DNA from: Paracoccaceae bacterium
GTDB taxonomy: Bacteria > Pseudomonadota > Alphaproteobacteria > Rhodobacterales > Rhodobacteraceae
NCBI GenBank assembly: GCA_020832445.1
Contig: JAFIEO010000029.1
Coordinates: 248,001-312,000 of the forward strand
Length of the DNA stretch: 64,000 bases
Direction of reading: 5' to 3'
The notes under the pieces: model-generated
Told to the model about the DNA's origin: nothing
Databases searched by the model: none
Seen by the model: the letters and a program-made list of their open reading frames with translations, nothing else
Part shown: piece after piece, positions 16,012-55,528 of the stretch
Numbering within the stretch: the first letter of the stretch is position 1
How the letters are laid out: the number at the start of each line of letters is the position of its first letter
Program-made: the position numbers and the translations under genes

Positions 16012-16860
16012 ATGGCACGCCAGTTGGACAAAGGGTTGTATCAGGGCTGTGATTCATGGCTGGTGCGGGGGTTGGAAGCACTGGGTCGTGACATAGGCGG
16101 GCGCGCGGGCACGTCAATCCGCAGCGCAACATTGCAAGGCACCGGAACCGCCCTGCGTTCGGTATCTGCAACGCCGGGCGTGGTCCCGGTGGATGAATTG
16201 CATCTGGCCTTGCTGAAGGGCAATTTTGCAAAGGCGCTTGAAATCTGCCGGTCCTTCCGGTCGGCACAGCGCCATGACCGTGCGGCGGTTTATGTGCGGC
16301 TGCTGTTGCCCGTTATCTTGCAACTTGGCCGCGACTGGACGGACGACAGGGCAGGGTTTGAGCAGATAGCCTTTGCCTATAGCCTGATGCACAGGATCAT
16401 CGAAACCCTGGGCGAGGCGACGCCTGCCATGGCGCGCGCGCGCGCGCCGTTGCATCTGGGGCGCGCCATCGTGGCCGTTGCCCCCGGTGATGCACATGAT
16501 TTCGGTGCGCGCGTTCTGGTCAAGCATCTGGAGTTGCAGGGCTGGGATGTCGCATTTGTTGACGGGTTCAACACACAAAAGGTTGCAGCCTTGCTTAAGT
16601 CCGGTCCGGTTGACGCGCTGGCCGTGTCGGTCAGCACGGATAGTGCTTTCATAGGCTTGGCAGATCTGATAGGAGAGTGGCGTTCTGTCGAGGCGGCACA
16701 ACACACCGAAGTGATTGTTGGGGGGGCGGCAATTATGCCACCCTATGGGCATTACAGTTTCTTGCAAGCCGATCAGGTTGGGCTGCGCATAAATGAGATG
16801 TCGGAGCATTTGCTGAGCCAAATGACGAATGGCCGATACGGCAGATGGAGTTTATCATGA
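16012..16860 (+). CDS. Second AerR/PpaA-like B12-binding regulator
   Basis: 282 residues from ATG 16012 (TTG 16000 is an alternative start). Residues about 60-145 form the helical cap domain of AerR-type regulators; from about 155 a B12-binding Rossmann domain follows with the ligand motif VAPGDAHDFGARVL, equivalent to PSGEQHSLGAMV in the canonical AerR at 34.2 kb. The putative cobalamin-coordinating His is therefore kept. AerR proteins sense light through B12 and antagonise PpsR/CrtJ. The two window copies are clearly diverged, not a recent duplication. Its TGA overlaps the ATG of the PpsR-like gene (16857-16860), so the pair is co-translated, in the same aerR-ppsR order as the main pair. 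Confidence 0.75.
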   Translation: MARQLDKGLYQGCDSWLVRGLEALGRDIGGRAGTSIRSATLQGTGTALRSVSATPGVVPVDELHLALLKGNFAKALEICRSFRSAQRHDRAAVYVRLLLPVILQLGRDWTDDRAGFEQIAFAYSLMHRIIETLGEATPAMARARAPLHLGRAIVAVAPGDAHDFGARVLVKHLELQGWDVAFVDGFNTQKVAALLKSGPVDALAVSVSTDSAFIGLADLIGEWRSVEAAQHTEVIVGGAAIMPPYGHYSFLQADQVGLRINEMSEHLLSQMTNGRYGRWSLS

Positions 16861-17591
16861 CCACCACCCCCGCACATGAGTTAGGCACCTTTGAGCGGAG
16901 TTTTTCACAATTCCCGTCATCCGTGCTGGGCCAGATTGTTCTGGCGGCAAGTGATCTGTGCGTGCTGGTGTCGGCGGATAACACCGTTGACGATATCATG
17001 CGTGGCGGTGCGCTGGAAGACGGGGTCGGGTCCGACTGGACCGGCAAGCAGTTAAAAAGCATTGTCTGCCAAGACGCGTGGCACAAACTGGACCTGCTTT
17101 GGTCCAGGCACGATGATGCAGAACCTGTCTGGCGCCATCTGAACTTTATGGAAGGCAACGGGGACGTGGATATGCCGCTTCTGGTGCGTCGCATTGATGC
17201 GGGCGACGGGCGGTCAATTCTGGTTTGTCGTGACCTTCGCCCCGTTGTCCAGATGCAGCAGAAATTCAGCCGCGCCATGCTGGAGATGGAACAATCCTTT
17301 GAGGATACGCGCTGGAAGCAAGACCTGATTGCCAGCGATCTGAATAAGCCCAAGGGCCGGTCTGTCGCCAATAAAGGGCGCGCGAATCTGGCAATGGAAA
17401 AGGCAATCACTGATGTGGGCCACCTGCCTTTGTCGGAAATCCTGGCGCAAACCGGGCGCGTTCTGGAAGATCTGTGCATCCGTCACGCATGCGAGCAATG
17501 CGATTACGATTTGTCGAAAGCGGCAGAATTGCTGGGGATGAGTTCGGATGAACTGGCCAGTCGCTTTACCTTTGAATCAAAACGCGCCTGA
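16857..17591 (+). CDS. Truncated PpsR/CrtJ-like protein lacking the central PAS domains
   Basis: 244 residues, about half of PpsR. Residues about 10-130 match the PpsR N-terminal sensor domain, including the end motif CRDLRPVVQMQQKF (TDQRPVLEMQQML in PpsR at 35.1 kb). A coiled-coil linker (about 135-155) then runs straight into a C-terminal Fis-type helix region (about 190-240: CDYDLSKAAELLGMSSDEL), so PAS1 and PAS2 are absent. The second HTH helix is diverged and lacks the SRQSLYVKLRK sequence of PpsR, so DNA binding is doubtful. Three Cys cluster just before the HTH (LCIRHACEQC). ATG 16857 has GGAG six bases upstream. Possibly a dominant-negative partner or antirepressor; that role is inferred. 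Confidence 0.75.
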   Translation: MTTTPAHELGTFERSFSQFPSSVLGQIVLAASDLCVLVSADNTVDDIMRGGALEDGVGSDWTGKQLKSIVCQDAWHKLDLLWSRHDDAEPVWRHLNFMEGNGDVDMPLLVRRIDAGDGRSILVCRDLRPVVQMQQKFSRAMLEMEQSFEDTRWKQDLIASDLNKPKGRSVANKGRANLAMEKAITDVGHLPLSEILAQTGRVLEDLCIRHACEQCDYDLSKAAELLGMSSDELASRFTFESKRA

Positions 17592-17626: not shown

Positions 17627-17720
17627 GGGCTTGGTGTTTTGATCTGGCATCAACGCGGACAGGCGTAGGGGGGAATCGCACGGGAACAAACCCGACACGA
17701 CGCGCCCCGCTGTCATTGCT

Positions 17721-17826
17721 TAGAGCATATCACGTTCATTCGCATTCACGAGACATGCTCTGACTTATTGATTCCGCATGTTCGAGAAGCTCAAAACCGG
17801 TTCCCACTTTTGAGCAACATACTCTA
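17721..17826. repeat. Palindromic interspersed repeat (RPE/Bru-RS-like)
   Basis: About 106 bp beginning TAGAGCATAT and ending ACATACTCTA, so the ends are imperfect inverted repeats. The first 40 bp form their own palindrome (AGAGCAT to ATGCTCT), and the second half holds AAAACCGGTTCCCACTTTT, a string I know from the interspersed palindromic elements common in Rhizobiales and other alphaproteobacteria. The right end touches the cytochrome gene: CTA at 17824-17826 is its TAG stop codon on the minus strand. Only one copy is seen in the window. Confidence 0.75.
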
Positions 17827-33930: not shown

Positions 33931-33959
33931 TATTAACGGCATAGGCGATTAGGTGTCAA
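33931..33959 (-). promoter_or_regulatory. Sigma70-like promoter of the bchF operon
   Basis: On the minus strand TTGACA (33959-33954) and TTAATA (33936-33931) are separated by 17 bp, a near-consensus promoter 31 bp before the bchF ATG. The -35 hexamer is half of the PpsR box at 33954-33971, so repressor and polymerase would compete. Confidence 0.65.
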
Positions 33960-33971
33960 TTAAAACTTACA
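33954..33971. promoter_or_regulatory. PpsR/CrtJ box upstream of bchF
   Basis: TGT-N12-ACA with the common CAATTAAAACTT spacer. It overlaps the -35 of the bchF promoter. PpsR boxes act in pairs; the partner may be the box at 34094-34111, 140 bp away and closer to aerR. Confidence 0.75.
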
Positions 33972-34093
33972 CATTTATGCACACACAAGGTGACACATCA
34001 ATCGTGGGGCATGGCGGTTGGGAATTTTAATGTATTGAATTATAAGTAAAACATGGGAATTCGTAGACACCTTGCGCAGATGTGCGTCGATAT

Positions 34094-34111
34094 TGTAAGT
34101 TTGGTTTGACA
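34094..34111. promoter_or_regulatory. PpsR/CrtJ box upstream of aerR
   Basis: TGT-N12-ACA (spacer AAGTTTGGTTTG). The right arm reads TTGACA on the plus strand and could be the -35 of the aerR-ppsR promoter; the matching -10 is weak. Suggests autoregulation of aerR-ppsR. Confidence 0.7.
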
Positions 34112-34235
34112 ATTCCTTGTCTAGCTGTGAAACTGGACAAGCTTTATATCTGAGATTCAGGGCCATTGCATTTTCAGTGCGTAACCAAGTCTTTTGGACG
34201 TGCGCGTGGTTTTGAAATCTGCCGGGGGGGCAGGG

Positions 34236-35033
34236 ATGGAAGGACTTCGTTTAGCGCATTTTGACGACATGACTTCTGGTCAGGCGGTGGTGCGGCAGTT
34301 TGCACTTCGGGTTGTGTCGGAGCTTGTTCAGAAATCCGGTGTTCAGTCCGGCGAACCCGACCGGGATTTGCTAAGTCTGATGGTAAGATTGTCCAAAAGT
34401 GCCGATCCGGGCATGTTTGCGGCCGTCTATGACGAAATGAAGCGCAGGCGCGTATCTGCGGAACATATTGTCGATATCTATCTGCCTGCGGCCATTTCAA
34501 AACTGGGCAATAGCTGGCATGAGGGCGAGCTGGATATATTTCAGGCAACAATCGCCATGGCGCGCCTGCAATCCCTGTTGCGCGAGATTGCGCTGGCATG
34601 GTTTGCCGACCAGTCAGGCGATTGCCATGACGGGCGCGTGTTTCTGGTGCTGCCATCCGGCGAGCAGCATAGTCTGGGCGCGATGGTTGCGGCCAACCAG
34701 ATGCGGCGGTTGGGAATCTCGGTTCGGGTCAGCTTGCTGCCCACAGCACGATCCATTGAGGAGGAGTTGTCAGAACACCGATTTCATGCAGTTTTTGTTT
34801 CCGCGTCTAACCGCGCTTCGCTGACAACATGTGTTGAACTGGTTAAGACGATTCGCGCCCATTCCGGCAGGGATTTGCCGGTTGCTTTGGGCGGTGCATT
34901 GGTGACATTGTTGCAAAAAGACATGAGTTTGAAGCACATTGCTGCAATGGTGGGCGCAAATATCGCCACAACCCAGATATCAGAGGCTTTAACTTCCTGT
35001 GGTTTGGCCATAAATCACACCAGTGTAGAATAG
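34236..35033 (+). CDS. aerR: AerR/PpaA B12-binding photosynthesis regulator
   Basis: 265 residues from ATG 34236 (MEGLRLAHFDDM); TTG 34194 and GTG 34206 are possible longer starts, of interest because AerR in Rhodobacter capsulatus has long and short forms. Residues about 45-125 are the helical domain (HIVDIYLPAAISKLGNSW) and residues about 135-255 the cobalamin-binding fold with the His motif PSGEQHSLGAMVAANQMRR. AerR binds B12 after light exposure and antagonises PpsR/CrtJ. It lies directly upstream of ppsR. Confidence 0.9.
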   Translation: MEGLRLAHFDDMTSGQAVVRQFALRVVSELVQKSGVQSGEPDRDLLSLMVRLSKSADPGMFAAVYDEMKRRRVSAEHIVDIYLPAAISKLGNSWHEGELDIFQATIAMARLQSLLREIALAWFADQSGDCHDGRVFLVLPSGEQHSLGAMVAANQMRRLGISVRVSLLPTARSIEEELSEHRFHAVFVSASNRASLTTCVELVKTIRAHSGRDLPVALGGALVTLLQKDMSLKHIAAMVGANIATTQISEALTSCGLAINHTSVE

Positions 35034-35095
35034 TCATATGTGTCGTTGTCTGCGCCGCAATGGTGGGGCAGATTACAGGAAGGAGCAGGTTTACT

Positions 35096-36523
35096 GTGTC
35101 AAACGAAGGTGCCAGATTCCTTGAAAGTGGCTCGGTGCCCGTCTTCGGTGGGGATTTCTTTTCTGCCGTTCTGACCAGTCTTGCCGATATCTCTGTTCTT
35201 ATCACGAAAGAAGCTATTGTTCGGGTTATCCATGTCAAGCCTGACGCCGTAAGTTTTGACGGTGTGTCGCGCTGGGTGGGTCAGGATTTCGTGGCCTTGC
35301 TGGATTCTGAAAGTGTTCCGAAGTTTCAGGCGCGCCTTGCCGATCTGGTCGAGCGCGCTGACAAAGGCGAAGTCGTTCCTGCGCGTTGGGTGGAAGTGTC
35401 GCATGTTGTGAAATCCGGCCAGACGGTGCCTGTGCGCTATGTCATGCACTGGATCGAGGAAAGCGGCGAGATTTTGCTGCTTGGCACTGACCAGCGCCCG
35501 GTTCTGGAAATGCAGCAGATGCTGCTGAACGCCCAGATAGCGCTTGAACGCGATTATGAAGCGCAGCGGGAAATTGACACCCGATACCGCCTGCTTATGG
35601 ATTTCACCACGGATGCGGTGGTTCTGGTATCGGCGATGTCGGGCCAGATTGTCGATATGAACCACAATGCGGCGTCTTTGCTGGGCAGTTCGCGCGCCGA
35701 TCTGCTCAAGCGTTCGTTCGCCGAGCAGTTTGTCGGACGCGGCAAGGAAGAATTGATGGCAACGCTTGACGTGCCATCCTCGATGGATGCCGCCCCCGCC
35801 ATAGAGGTAGAGGCCAAGGCAGACGCGCGCCGTTTGTTGTTGACCCCCAAGATTTTCCGTGCCGCAGGCGAGCAACTGGCGATTGTGCGCATAAGCGACG
35901 TTGCACAAGGATCATCTGCCGATGGCCGGTTGATGGCCAATCTGCGCCAGCTTTTCCATCGCGGGGTGGATGCGATTGTATTCACCGACAAGGAAGGGTC
36001 TATTCTGGCCGCAAGCGAGACATTCCTGAACCTGACCGATGCACCGGGCCTTGCGGCCGTGCGTGGGCGTTCGATGGCTGATTTCCTTAGCCGTGGCATG
36101 GTGGACCTGAAAGTGTTGCTGGACAATGCGCGCCGTGCGGGCCAGTTGCGCATGTATTCCACCAAGCTGAAAACAGATTTTGATGCCCGTGTTTCGGTGG
36201 AAATATCTGCAACATGGCTGGATGACCGCACTGATCCGGTTTTGGCGCTGATTGTGCGCAATGCGTCCAACGCGGCGGCGCTGCGCGCCGATAACGCAAC
36301 CCCGGAGGCGAATATGCGCGGCGTGATGGAGCTTGTCGGATCATCCACGCTGAAGGACATTGTGTCCGAGACGACGAATGTGATCGAGAAGATCTGCATC
36401 GAAACCGCGATCGAGCTGACGCGCAACAACCGCGTTGCGGCTGCGGAAATGCTGGGCCTGTCGCGCCAGTCACTTTATGTGAAGCTGCGCAAATATGGCA
36501 TTCTTAGCCGGGACGAGGCGTAG
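35096..36523 (+). CDS. ppsR: Photosynthesis gene repressor PpsR/CrtJ
   Basis: 475 residues from GTG 35096, with GGAAGGAG upstream; an ATG at 35060 adds 12 unlikely residues. Domains in order: N-terminal PAS-like domain (about 10-130), Gln-rich coiled linker (VLEMQQMLLNAQIALERDY), PAS1 (about 165-265), PAS2 (about 285-395) and a Fis-type HTH at the end (AAAEMLGLSRQSLYVKLRKYGI). It represses bch, crt and other genes at TGT-N12-ACA boxes under oxygen. Only one cysteine is present, next to the HTH (EKICIETA); the linker cysteine used for the redox disulphide in Rhodobacter is missing. Confidence 0.93.
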   Translation: MSNEGARFLESGSVPVFGGDFFSAVLTSLADISVLITKEAIVRVIHVKPDAVSFDGVSRWVGQDFVALLDSESVPKFQARLADLVERADKGEVVPARWVEVSHVVKSGQTVPVRYVMHWIEESGEILLLGTDQRPVLEMQQMLLNAQIALERDYEAQREIDTRYRLLMDFTTDAVVLVSAMSGQIVDMNHNAASLLGSSRADLLKRSFAEQFVGRGKEELMATLDVPSSMDAAPAIEVEAKADARRLLLTPKIFRAAGEQLAIVRISDVAQGSSADGRLMANLRQLFHRGVDAIVFTDKEGSILAASETFLNLTDAPGLAAVRGRSMADFLSRGMVDLKVLLDNARRAGQLRMYSTKLKTDFDARVSVEISATWLDDRTDPVLALIVRNASNAAALRADNATPEANMRGVMELVGSSTLKDIVSETTNVIEKICIETAIELTRNNRVAAAEMLGLSRQSLYVKLRKYGILSRDEA

Positions 36524-53407: not shown

Positions 53408-53425
53408 TGTCCAGTTTAAGTTACA
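53408..53425. promoter_or_regulatory. PpsR/CrtJ box between crtD and crtE
   Basis: Perfect TGT-N12-ACA with spacer CCAGTTTAAGTT, placed between the divergent starts of crtD (53377) and crtE (53473). Only one clear box is seen here. Confidence 0.65.
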
Positions 53426-53472
53426 CTATGATGTCGAAAATATTTGACACACAGCGGCGCAAGGGGGCCAGG

Positions 53473-54351: not shown

Positions 54352-55456
54352 GCGCGAGAGGGGCGGCGCAACCCTGCCCGCGCCACCAAGGCCCGCAGGC
54401 ATAATGAACCGGCTGGCGTCATCGCCCCGATTTCAGGCTATTGCAGAACGTGTGCCCATCCTGCGCGGCATTGCGCGGCGCGAAGGGGCGGCGCTGTTCG
54501 ATCTGATGCAGGGCTTTGTCAACAGCCAGATGCTGGCCGCGTTGGTGGAATTGCGCGTGCTGCATCTGCTGGCCGAAGGCGGGGCGACAGCCGATGCGCT
54601 GGCCGCGCGCCTGAATGTGCCGCCGGACCGTATGGCGGTGCTGTTGCAGGCGGGCGCGGCCATGCGGTTGTTGCGGCGCAAAGGGGCCAGGTTCTATCTT
54701 GCGCGGCGCGGTGCGGCCTTTCTGGGCGTTGCAGGGCTGGAAGATATGGTGCGCCATCATGCGGTTCTGTATGGTGATCTGGCCGACCCGGCGGCATTTA
54801 TCCGCGGTGAAACAACGCCTGCGCTGGCAGAATTCTGGCCCTATGTGTTTGGCGCATCCGGCCCCATAGACCCCGAAATCTCGGCGCGGTATTCGCGCCT
54901 TATGGCCGACAGCCAGACCCTTGTTGCACAAGAAGCGCTGCGTGTGTTGACCCTGAACGGGGCCGCGCATTTGCTGGATCTGGGGGGCGGCACGGGTGCA
55001 TTTCTGCGTGCGGTGCATGCGCGCTATCCGGCGCTGGAACTGTCCTTGTTTGATCTGCCAGATGTTGTTGCAATGGCCGACCTGCCCGCCAATGTTGCGC
55101 GCCATGGCGGATCGTTCCGCGATGATCCGTTGCCGCAGGGCGCGGATGTCATATCGCTTGTGCGGGTGCTGTATGATCACCGCGATGATACTGTGCGCGC
55201 GCTGTTGCAAAAGGTATTTGCCACATTGCCTGCGGGCGGGCGCCTGTTGGTGATCGAACCGATGTCAGGCGGCGCGCGCCCCGATCCACATACAGATGTG
55301 TATTTTTCAGTTTACACAATGGCCATGCAAACCGGGCGTACGCGCAGCACACAAGAGATTGCGACCCTACTGAAAGACACCGGTTTCACGAAGATAACGC
55401 CTGTCAGGACGCGCAGAAGCTATGTTTCTGCCGTAATTACAGCACAGAAACTGTAA
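54344..55456 (+). CDS. crtF: Hydroxyneurosporene/hydroxycarotenoid O-methyltransferase
   Basis: 370 residues from GTG 54344, overlapping the crtE stop; ATG 54404 would give 350. SAM-dependent methyltransferase: a dimerisation/helix-turn-helix N-terminal half (GFVNSQMLAALVELRVLHLL), then LLDLGGGTGAFLRAV near residue 208 and LIRVLYDHRDD-like (ISLVRVLYDHRDD). Methylates the C1 hydroxyl to give methoxy carotenoids. Confidence 0.9.
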   Translation: MPERERGGATLPAPPRPAGIMNRLASSPRFQAIAERVPILRGIARREGAALFDLMQGFVNSQMLAALVELRVLHLLAEGGATADALAARLNVPPDRMAVLLQAGAAMRLLRRKGARFYLARRGAAFLGVAGLEDMVRHHAVLYGDLADPAAFIRGETTPALAEFWPYVFGASGPIDPEISARYSRLMADSQTLVAQEALRVLTLNGAAHLLDLGGGTGAFLRAVHARYPALELSLFDLPDVVAMADLPANVARHGGSFRDDPLPQGADVISLVRVLYDHRDDTVRALLQKVFATLPAGGRLLVIEPMSGGARPDPHTDVYFSVYTMAMQTGRTRSTQEIATLLKDTGFTKITPVRTRRSYVSAVITAQKL

Positions 55457-55484
55457 CTCTGGCCTGTCATCTTTAAAATAACTG

Positions 55485-55528
55485 TCAATATGAATTGACA
55501 CTATAGCGTGTATCAGTAAGATTACACA
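55485..55528. promoter_or_regulatory. Paired PpsR/CrtJ boxes upstream of bchC
   Basis: Two perfect TGT-N12-ACA sites, 55485-55502 (spacer CAATATGAATTG) and 55511-55528 (spacer ATCAGTAAGATT), 8 bp apart. This is the classic bchC arrangement. A likely sigma70 promoter is embedded: TTGACA at 55497-55502, TAAGAT at 55519-55524, 16 bp spacing, so each box covers one hexamer. Confidence 0.85.

Follow-up and report, generated by a model that had tools for sequence, protein, structure and literature searches.

What would a bacterium do with a second AerR–PpsR gene pair in which the repressor has lost both of its central PAS domains? In purple bacteria, PpsR (CrtJ) ranks among the main repressors of photosynthesis genes. 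Its shut-off by AerR or AppA has been studied through one docking surface. The question is raised by a stretch of 64,000 nucleotides from a Paracoccaceae bacterium (contig JAFIEO010000029.1, positions 248,001 to 312,000, assembly GCA_020832445.1), hereafter the window, in which two coupled genes, here called aerR2 and ppsR2, repeat the order of a canonical aerR–ppsR pair. Both open reading frames (ORFs) that the initial annotation had described as coupled are present, joined by an ATGA overlap; the start of ppsR2 was chosen on the basis of this overlap and of the equivalent start annotated in Roseinatronobacter sp. S2.

16012..16860, + strand: aerR2, AerR/PpaA-like B12-binding protein, 282 amino acids (ATG at 16012, stop at 16858–16860)
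16857..17591, + strand: ppsR2, short PpsR-derived protein, 244 amino acids (TIGR02040, 2.8e-18; likely ATG at 16857)

Our tentative answer is that AerR2 is a B12 sensor and PpsR2 a DNA-binding-dead PpsR derivative that would act by protein contact, probably as an anti-repressor entering PpsR oligomers.

Domain composition of PpsR2

PpsR2 matches the PpsR–CrtJ profile TIGR02040 in two stretches at about 3e-18 (66.1 bits, with the curated cut-off of 275.4 bits not reached), while the canonical pair at 34.2–36.5 kb is confirmed by a ppsR scoring 432.6 bits.

34194..35033, + strand: canonical aerR, for comparison (S2-type start at 34236)
35060..36523, + strand: canonical ppsR, for comparison (TIGR02040, 432.6 bits)

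Homologs of the short form amount to 14 proteins and one fragment in three genera. Ten of them, and their AerR2 partners, were aligned (eight from Roseinatronobacter and one each from genomes G217 and G368); four later copies were examined apart and are partly redundant, L184 being 96% like G217 and L186 100% like G368. All 10 aligned short proteins match TIGR02040. In addition, residues 25–157 of ORF P0002 match the PpsR N-domain of 4hh3 (1.4e-7), and the best solved relatives of the modelled N-domain and linker in Foldseek are PpsR structures (4hh3_A, 4l9g, and 4hh2; E 1.0e-8 to 1.5e-7). In the refuting test that the initial annotation had named, profile, solved sequence and fold place the short protein inside the PpsR N-domain family, and together they rule out a chance similarity to PpsR.

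The AlphaFold2 (AF2) model (predicted local distance difference test score, pLDDT, 84) consists of an N-terminal PAS domain, then a helix of 35 residues and, at the C-terminus, a Fis-like part with helices at residues 192–214, 219–226, and 230–243.

16872..17234, + strand: N-terminal PAS domain (N-domain), residues 6–126 (AF2 model; Foldseek 4hh3_A at 1.0e-8, 4l9g, 4hh2)
17130..17147, + strand: WRHLNF motif (10 of 10 aligned short proteins)
17238..17342, + strand: Q-linker helix, residues 128–162, the AppA/AerR docking and coiled-coil element (AF2 model, alignment)
17430..17585, + strand: Fis-like C-terminal helices, residues 192–243 (HTH_8, second TIGR02040 stretch, AF2 model)

The chain runs directly from the linker into the helix-turn-helix (HTH), and no Pfam PAS match at E ≤ 1 marks PAS1 or PAS2, so the claim that both are missing from an otherwise PpsR-like N-domain and Fis-like C-terminus is borne out. 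The HTH_8 match itself is at E = 0.007 (16.5 bits, under the cut-off of 22). PpsR2 therefore resembles PpsR/CrtJ in its N-terminal PAS fold, in the RDLRP...MQQ linker helix (including the RPVVQMQQ motif reported at the end of the N-domain), and in a cysteine within the Fis-like C-terminus; it differs in the absence of PAS1, PAS2 and the canonical recognition residues, in its profile score, and in carrying WRHLNF. At the third and sixth positions of this motif canonical PpsRs have glutamate (55/57) and histidine (57/57), so that the short proteins show a swap, E112H and H115F. WRHLNF is found in 12 of the 14 short proteins, the four later copies reading WRHLNF, WRHLNF, WRHVNF, and WRHLNL.

AerR2 and its predicted cobalamin site

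AerR2 contains a Pfam B12-binding domain (PF02310, E = 6.5e-10; PF02607, 8e-5), and its nearest solved sequence is AerR 7te2 (8e-7). The AF2 model (pLDDT 82) shows a B12-binding fold with a four-helix cap, which Foldseek matches (E about 2e-9 to 3e-7) to photocobilins, corrinoid proteins, AerR 7te2, the SCHIC domain of AppA (4heh, 4hh3_C), and CarH.

16483..16509, + strand: PGDAHDFGA, DxHxxG-type lower-ligand histidine motif (H162; histidine in 10 of 10 AerR2 and 56 of 56 canonical AerR)

The correspondence of this motif to SGEQHSLGA in the canonical AerR is as the initial annotation gave it. The tryptophan and the phenylalanine expected to cap the cobalamin are both there in the window's AerR2; the tryptophan is present in all nine proteins that cover it, and the phenylalanine in 8 of 10, being absent from G217 and G368. 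AerR2 thus has in common with AerR/PpaA the fold, the cap, the lower-ligand histidine, the covering tryptophan, and the place of its gene, which immediately precedes a ppsR-type gene and overlaps it. It is set apart by a changed docking helix and by an identity of 19% to the window's own AerR. Matches of aerR2 in Novosphingobium, Methylobacterium, and Ilyobacter (25–28% identity) were set aside as general B12 proteins.

In LAerR the upper cobalamin ligand is His10 (PMC9144470). The window's AerR2, unlike LAerR, has no histidine in its first 60 residues and instead carries an N-terminal CxxW cysteine (Cys13, window 16048–16050), a candidate upper ligand or redox site. This cysteine occurs in seven of the nine aligned AerR2 whose N-terminus lies on the contig, the exceptions being G024, where the frame starts later, and G368, with a cysteine at another spacing. 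It is also present in two of three later AerR2 copies; among 56 canonical AerR, a single one has CxxW within its first 80 residues.

Both proteins match in fold the partners of the AppA–PpsR core complex (4hh3, a PpsR dimer with AppA SCHIC). For PpsR2 there is a match in sequence as well (1.4e-7), whereas that of AerR2 is weak in sequence (0.061; 1.6e-7 for its fold match to 4hh3_C). The systems differ in that AppA acts on the full repressor, whereas PpsR2 is a stand-alone N-domain/linker/HTH protein.

The recognition helix and the C-terminal cysteine

The Fis-type recognition helix SRQSLYVKLR is not preserved in the 10 aligned short proteins. They keep 1–4 of its 13 residues, in comparison with 10–13 of 13 in 57 canonical PpsRs, and the DNA-contact helix is thus diverged, as had been noted.

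17541..17579, + strand: former DNA-recognition helix SSDELASRFTFES (canonical SRQSLYVKLRKYG; the window protein has 2 of 13 canonical residues)

R469, Q470, S471, Y473, and R477 are invariant in the canonical proteins (57/57), while in the short ones R469 and R477 are each found once in 10 and the other three never. All eight Roseinatronobacter copies share an altered helix, D-[DE]-L-A-x-R. The net charge of the HTH is −2 to 0 in these eight, and +1 to +8 in the 57 canonical PpsRs; as G217 and G368 have +2, this comparison is weaker than that of the residues.

One could imagine that PpsR2 still binds DNA, with a new specificity conferred by the changed helix. The HTH frame is kept and predicted to be helical, one basic position is retained, and the copies of the G217 and G368 genera hold more basic residues; the acidic helix and lowered charge in the eight Roseinatronobacter proteins speak against it, and we consider it improbable. 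With PAS1, PAS2, and most DNA-contact residues gone, PpsR2 most likely acts by protein contact.

17475..17477, + strand: Cys207, aligned with the C-terminal cysteine of canonical PpsR (taken as PpsR Cys424/CrtJ Cys420)

Three cysteines beside the HTH were noted initially. Counting from the ATG at 16857, the window protein does have C207, C212, and C215; of these, C207 alone occurs across the family, in all 10 aligned short proteins and all four later copies (14/14), and it is shared with the canonical PpsRs (57/57). Its equation with Cys424 rests on the alignment and on the distance from the C-terminus (41 versus 40 residues, presuming a PpsR length of 464 residues). Cys207 keeps the position of the PpsR redox cysteine, and perhaps its predicted redox role.

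Changes on both sides of the docking surface

In PpsR, the contact with PAS2 through which tetramers form and the site for AppA both lie on the linker (PMC3949515), and AppA blocks tetramers through this linker helix, its binding site (PMC3949515, PMC9144470). Helix 4 is the PpsR-docking helix of AppA and AerR; six linker residues of CrtJ that face AerR, and three residues of AerR helix 4, are named (PMC9144470). We compared these positions, numbering AerR from W94 of the 7te2 sequence, and added AerR positions 110 and 116, which are absent from the residues named in that source.

16357..16413, + strand: helix 4 of the AerR2 four-helix cap, residues 116–134 (AF2 model, alignment)

On the AerR side, L125, H127, and E131 of AerR2 occupy the positions of canonical R110, Q112, and residue 116 (mostly arginine). 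R110, invariant in 56 canonical AerR, is leucine in 8 of 10 AerR2; Q112 (52/56) is histidine in 8 of 10; and the arginine at 116 (50/56) is replaced by glutamate or aspartate in all 10, with aspartate in the three later copies that have aerR2. On the linker side, L136 (57/57 canonical) becomes F/Y/W in all 10 short proteins, and Q140 (57/57) is replaced in nine, by M/L/I in eight; the window protein has F137 and M141 at these positions. Q133 is kept in nine and E144 in seven, R151 (55/57 canonical) in four, and position 147, tyrosine in 39 and histidine in 17 of 57 canonical PpsRs, is variable. Both partners are therefore altered at the contact expected to join them, a pattern rather than a covariation statistic, since independent lineages are few, which suggests that the partner of AerR2 is its own short PpsR.

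The retained Q133 and E144 would suit a decoy, in which PpsR2 favours repression by drawing canonical AerR, or a different sensor that binds PpsR, away from that repressor. We regard this as unlikely, given that the otherwise invariant L136 and Q140 are replaced in 10 and nine of 10 and that ppsR2 overlaps an aerR2 of its own.

The strongest rival is insulation: AerR2 and PpsR2 would bind each other but neither canonical PpsR nor AerR, with PpsR2 serving as an adaptor to another protein. The changes on the docking helices and the swap fixed in the N-domain (E112H, H115F) may just as well point this way; they are fixed or nearly fixed on both helices and in the N-domain. Conservation extends to the altered recognition helix (eight of eight Roseinatronobacter copies), as would be expected of a protein surface, and several copies lie outside the photosynthesis gene cluster within the flanks fetched. 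Set against these points are the copies of two genera that lie near the cytochrome c-like–hemA part of the cluster, and the canonical PpsR in all eight Roseinatronobacter genomes with the pair (above the TIGR02040 cut-off in seven, and in G022 a partial match where the contig ends). On balance we judge insulation somewhat doubtful, and prefer a PpsR2 that enters PpsR oligomers.

Inheritance and selection

Among 37 Roseinatronobacter genomes, ppsR2 is present over most of its length in eight, with aerR2 in the same eight (cut by the contig end in G022). Fragments at contig ends add ppsR2 in G012 and a probable aerR2 in G032; of these two genomes, G032 has one canonical PpsR match above the TIGR02040 cut-off and G012 (71% complete) none. 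The short form was further looked for at three taxonomic levels, with at most seven first-look candidates scored per genome. In the family (394 genomes, 393 genera) 166 match the profile at E ≤ 1e-6 and three have the short form (G000, the genome of the window, G217, and G368); the other places listed have frames of at least 470 amino acids, except in G331, where PpsR is split over contig ends, and beyond the places listed, absence is judged from each genome's best E-value. In the class (385 genomes, 14 matching at E ≤ 1e-15) it is found only in the window's own genome, and in the phylum (398 genomes, 16 matching) in G000, G368, and G815, with frames of at least 478 amino acids in the other 13 genomes each time. 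Within their own genera, ppsR2 is present in three of seven (G217) and three of six genomes (G368), and a search of plasmids with the short proteins of G368 and G217 gave no match. G368 also has a PpsR frame of 506 codons, and G217, on the contig that carries the pair, one of 654 codons that shows a C-terminal match. A DNA search with the G368 locus, of which 8 of 30 matching records were listed, gave matches at 11.2–12.5 kb of L131, mostly annotated as transposases.

The two genes are inherited together: aerR2 adjoins ppsR2 in 13 of the 14 cases, including G005, in which the gene of an IS1595-type transposase separates them (L122:10294–11280; PF12762, 2.6e-19). In trees against 57 canonical PpsRs and 56 canonical AerR, the short PpsRs and the AerR2 proteins are each monophyletic (FastTree support 0.999 and 1.0), and both trees hold the same two groups, the window with G033, G005, and G019, and G013 with G017, G022, and G024. 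The inner order differs slightly, and the placement of G217 and G368 is weak (0.21) in the AerR tree.

Both genes are under purifying selection. The ratio of non-synonymous to synonymous substitution (dN/dS, Nei–Gojobori) against Roseinatronobacter sp. S2 is 0.150 for ppsR2 and 0.219 for aerR2, in comparison with 0.066 for canonical ppsR, 0.020 for aerR, 0.077 for hemA, and 0.180 for the ABC1 neighbour. A decaying duplicate with no present function might account for the faster evolution than in the canonical pair and for the insertion sequence that splits the pair in G005. Fourteen open copies, these dN/dS values, motifs conserved over three genera, and co-inheritance largely refute it, leaving decay highly improbable. 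The term "degenerate" is therefore unsupported. What stands of the initial annotation is a PpsR-derived second pair in the photosynthesis cluster; the remnant status does not, nor do the three cysteines as a hallmark.

Genomic surroundings

The window belongs to contig C18 in a genome of 4.08 Mb. The pair lies in the Roseinatronobacter photosynthesis gene cluster, at its hemA end. Downstream of ppsR2, on the − strand, follow a cytochrome c-like gene (17824; PF13442, 22.1 bits, under the family cut-off of 27), hemA, puhE, acsF, puhC, puhB, puhA, and bch genes, with names taken from the annotation of the Roseinatronobacter sp. S2 plasmid. The same region is found in this congener (G033, contig C3, plasmid NZ_CP121115.1), where aerR2 is annotated at NCBI as "cobalamin-dependent protein" (WP_277807033.1) and ppsR2 as "hypothetical protein" (WP_277807034.1). 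The photosynthesis gene cluster of S2 sits on this 613 kb plasmid (L164), and the window's contig may be the same replicon.

The pair is within a photosynthesis cluster in the window, G033, G217, G813, and G814, and near the cytochrome c-like gene, hemA, puhE, and acsF in the first four. In G217 and G813 it is, as in the window, convergent to hemA, with an alpha/beta-hydrolase gene on one side and the cytochrome c-like–hemA end on the other. The hydrolase gene, which follows bchI and bchD and adjoins the pair in G217, G813, and G814, is presumably bchO. A gene for a SOUL haem-binding protein (L130:10388–11176; PF04832, 1.5e-42) is found in G217 beside ppsR2, between the pair and the cytochrome c-like–hemA end. 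Elsewhere the pair stands beside a gene that we take to be typA (G013, G017, and G024) or in other flanks (G005 and G019); the 4.2 kb contig of G022 is too short to show gene context.

Between ppsR2 and the cytochrome c-like gene (window 17720–17825), there is an inverted-repeat-like arrangement, GAGCATAT...ATACTCTA, which may be an interspersed repeat or a terminator. The pattern TGT-N12-ACA occurs 23 times in the window, with 10.2 expected and a maximum of 17 in 100 shuffles. Its positions include 33954–34111, 36674, 39097, 46280, 53408–53449, and 55299–55526, several of which precede photosynthesis operons; one site is inside aerR2 (16686) and none directly before it. Finally, the genome encodes one BLUF protein, in a 184-residue frame (L177, G000:C71:39490–39765; 4.8e-30), a possible further light input.

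Proposed mechanism

We propose that the pair is a dedicated regulatory module that would have arisen from AerR–PpsR by duplication. AerR2 would be the cobalamin sensor, and its docking site the PpsR2 linker helix, with an interface re-matched between the two. PpsR2 appears to retain the parts that make dimers and receive AerR or AppA, that is, the N-terminal PAS domain, the linker helix, and the Fis-like helices with the redox cysteine. What it lacks is PAS1, the PAS2 that builds tetramers, and most of the residues in contact with DNA. In mixed dimers or oligomers with canonical PpsR, it could leave the two TGT-N12-ACA half-sites not both gripped, or block tetramerisation. This would make it an anti-repressor working as a "DNA-binding-dead subunit", with B12 or light on AerR2, and perhaps Cys207, as the gate. 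Contact with canonical PpsR is the most likely output, given that PpsR dimers are made by the very pieces that remain and that the pair lies in the photosynthesis cluster in two genera.

Several observations weigh against this proposal. At the docking surface, only Q112 of the three AerR residues named in PMC9144470 switches cleanly: position 105, S/T in 55 of 56 canonical AerR, is still S/T in 5 of 10 AerR2, and S109, mostly alanine or serine in the canonical proteins, is variable. The linker residues are poorly preserved in the G368 genus. In the recognition helix, K475 (56/57 canonical) remains basic, as arginine in nine and lysine in one of 10 short proteins, and the later copy L185 reads SRAEFVKKAR, with S, R, K, and R kept, and is more basic than the other short proteins. 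Genome G817 has a solo ppsR2 (L187:8061–8834), with no match to three AerR2 queries within 16 kb. Only two of the eight Roseinatronobacter copies are in the photosynthesis cluster, and five have no such context in the fetched flanks; both genes evolve faster than their canonical counterparts. Over the 350 bases that precede the drawn start of aerR2, none of nine loci has a TGT-N12-ACA site (for G022 upstream sequence is lacking, and in G019 a site falls just within the drawn frame), and FNR-type sites are likewise absent from these 350 bases.

Additional or divergent inputs to PpsR are described in other species. LdaP of Dinoroseobacter shibae is a LOV-protein anti-repressor of PpsR that acts as an extra input beside PpaA (PMC10890935); the likeness is in the added input, the difference in that LdaP is a LOV protein and no PpsR derivative. 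The same study applied a bacterial two-hybrid assay to PpaA and PpsR of D. shibae. HP1 of Rhodospirillum rubrum, like AerR2, is a divergent PpaA/AerR relative, without a cobalamin motif and with canonical PpsR as the proposed partner (PMC10734443). No paper among the literature matches listed describes a short PpsR or a second AerR–PpsR pair; with subscription journals mostly outside the coverage, this is no proof that they are unpublished. By analogy only, with no homology implied, PpsR2 recalls the Id-type dominant-negative helix-loop-helix proteins, which keep the dimer parts and have no DNA contacts.

Significance

It is possible that PpsR has a natural subunit poison in the form of a conserved paralog that cannot bind DNA and is paired with a B12 photoreceptor of its own, within a duplicated and re-matched pair. 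If true, anti-repression would be exerted by a partner derived from the repressor instead of by a free sensor, for which we found no described precedent in the literature searched. With both sides of the docking surface changed and the canonical DNA-reading residues gone, the pair is a natural test of which contacts lie behind the specificity of the complex, and PpsR2 might serve structure work and optogenetics as a minimal protein that binds AerR.

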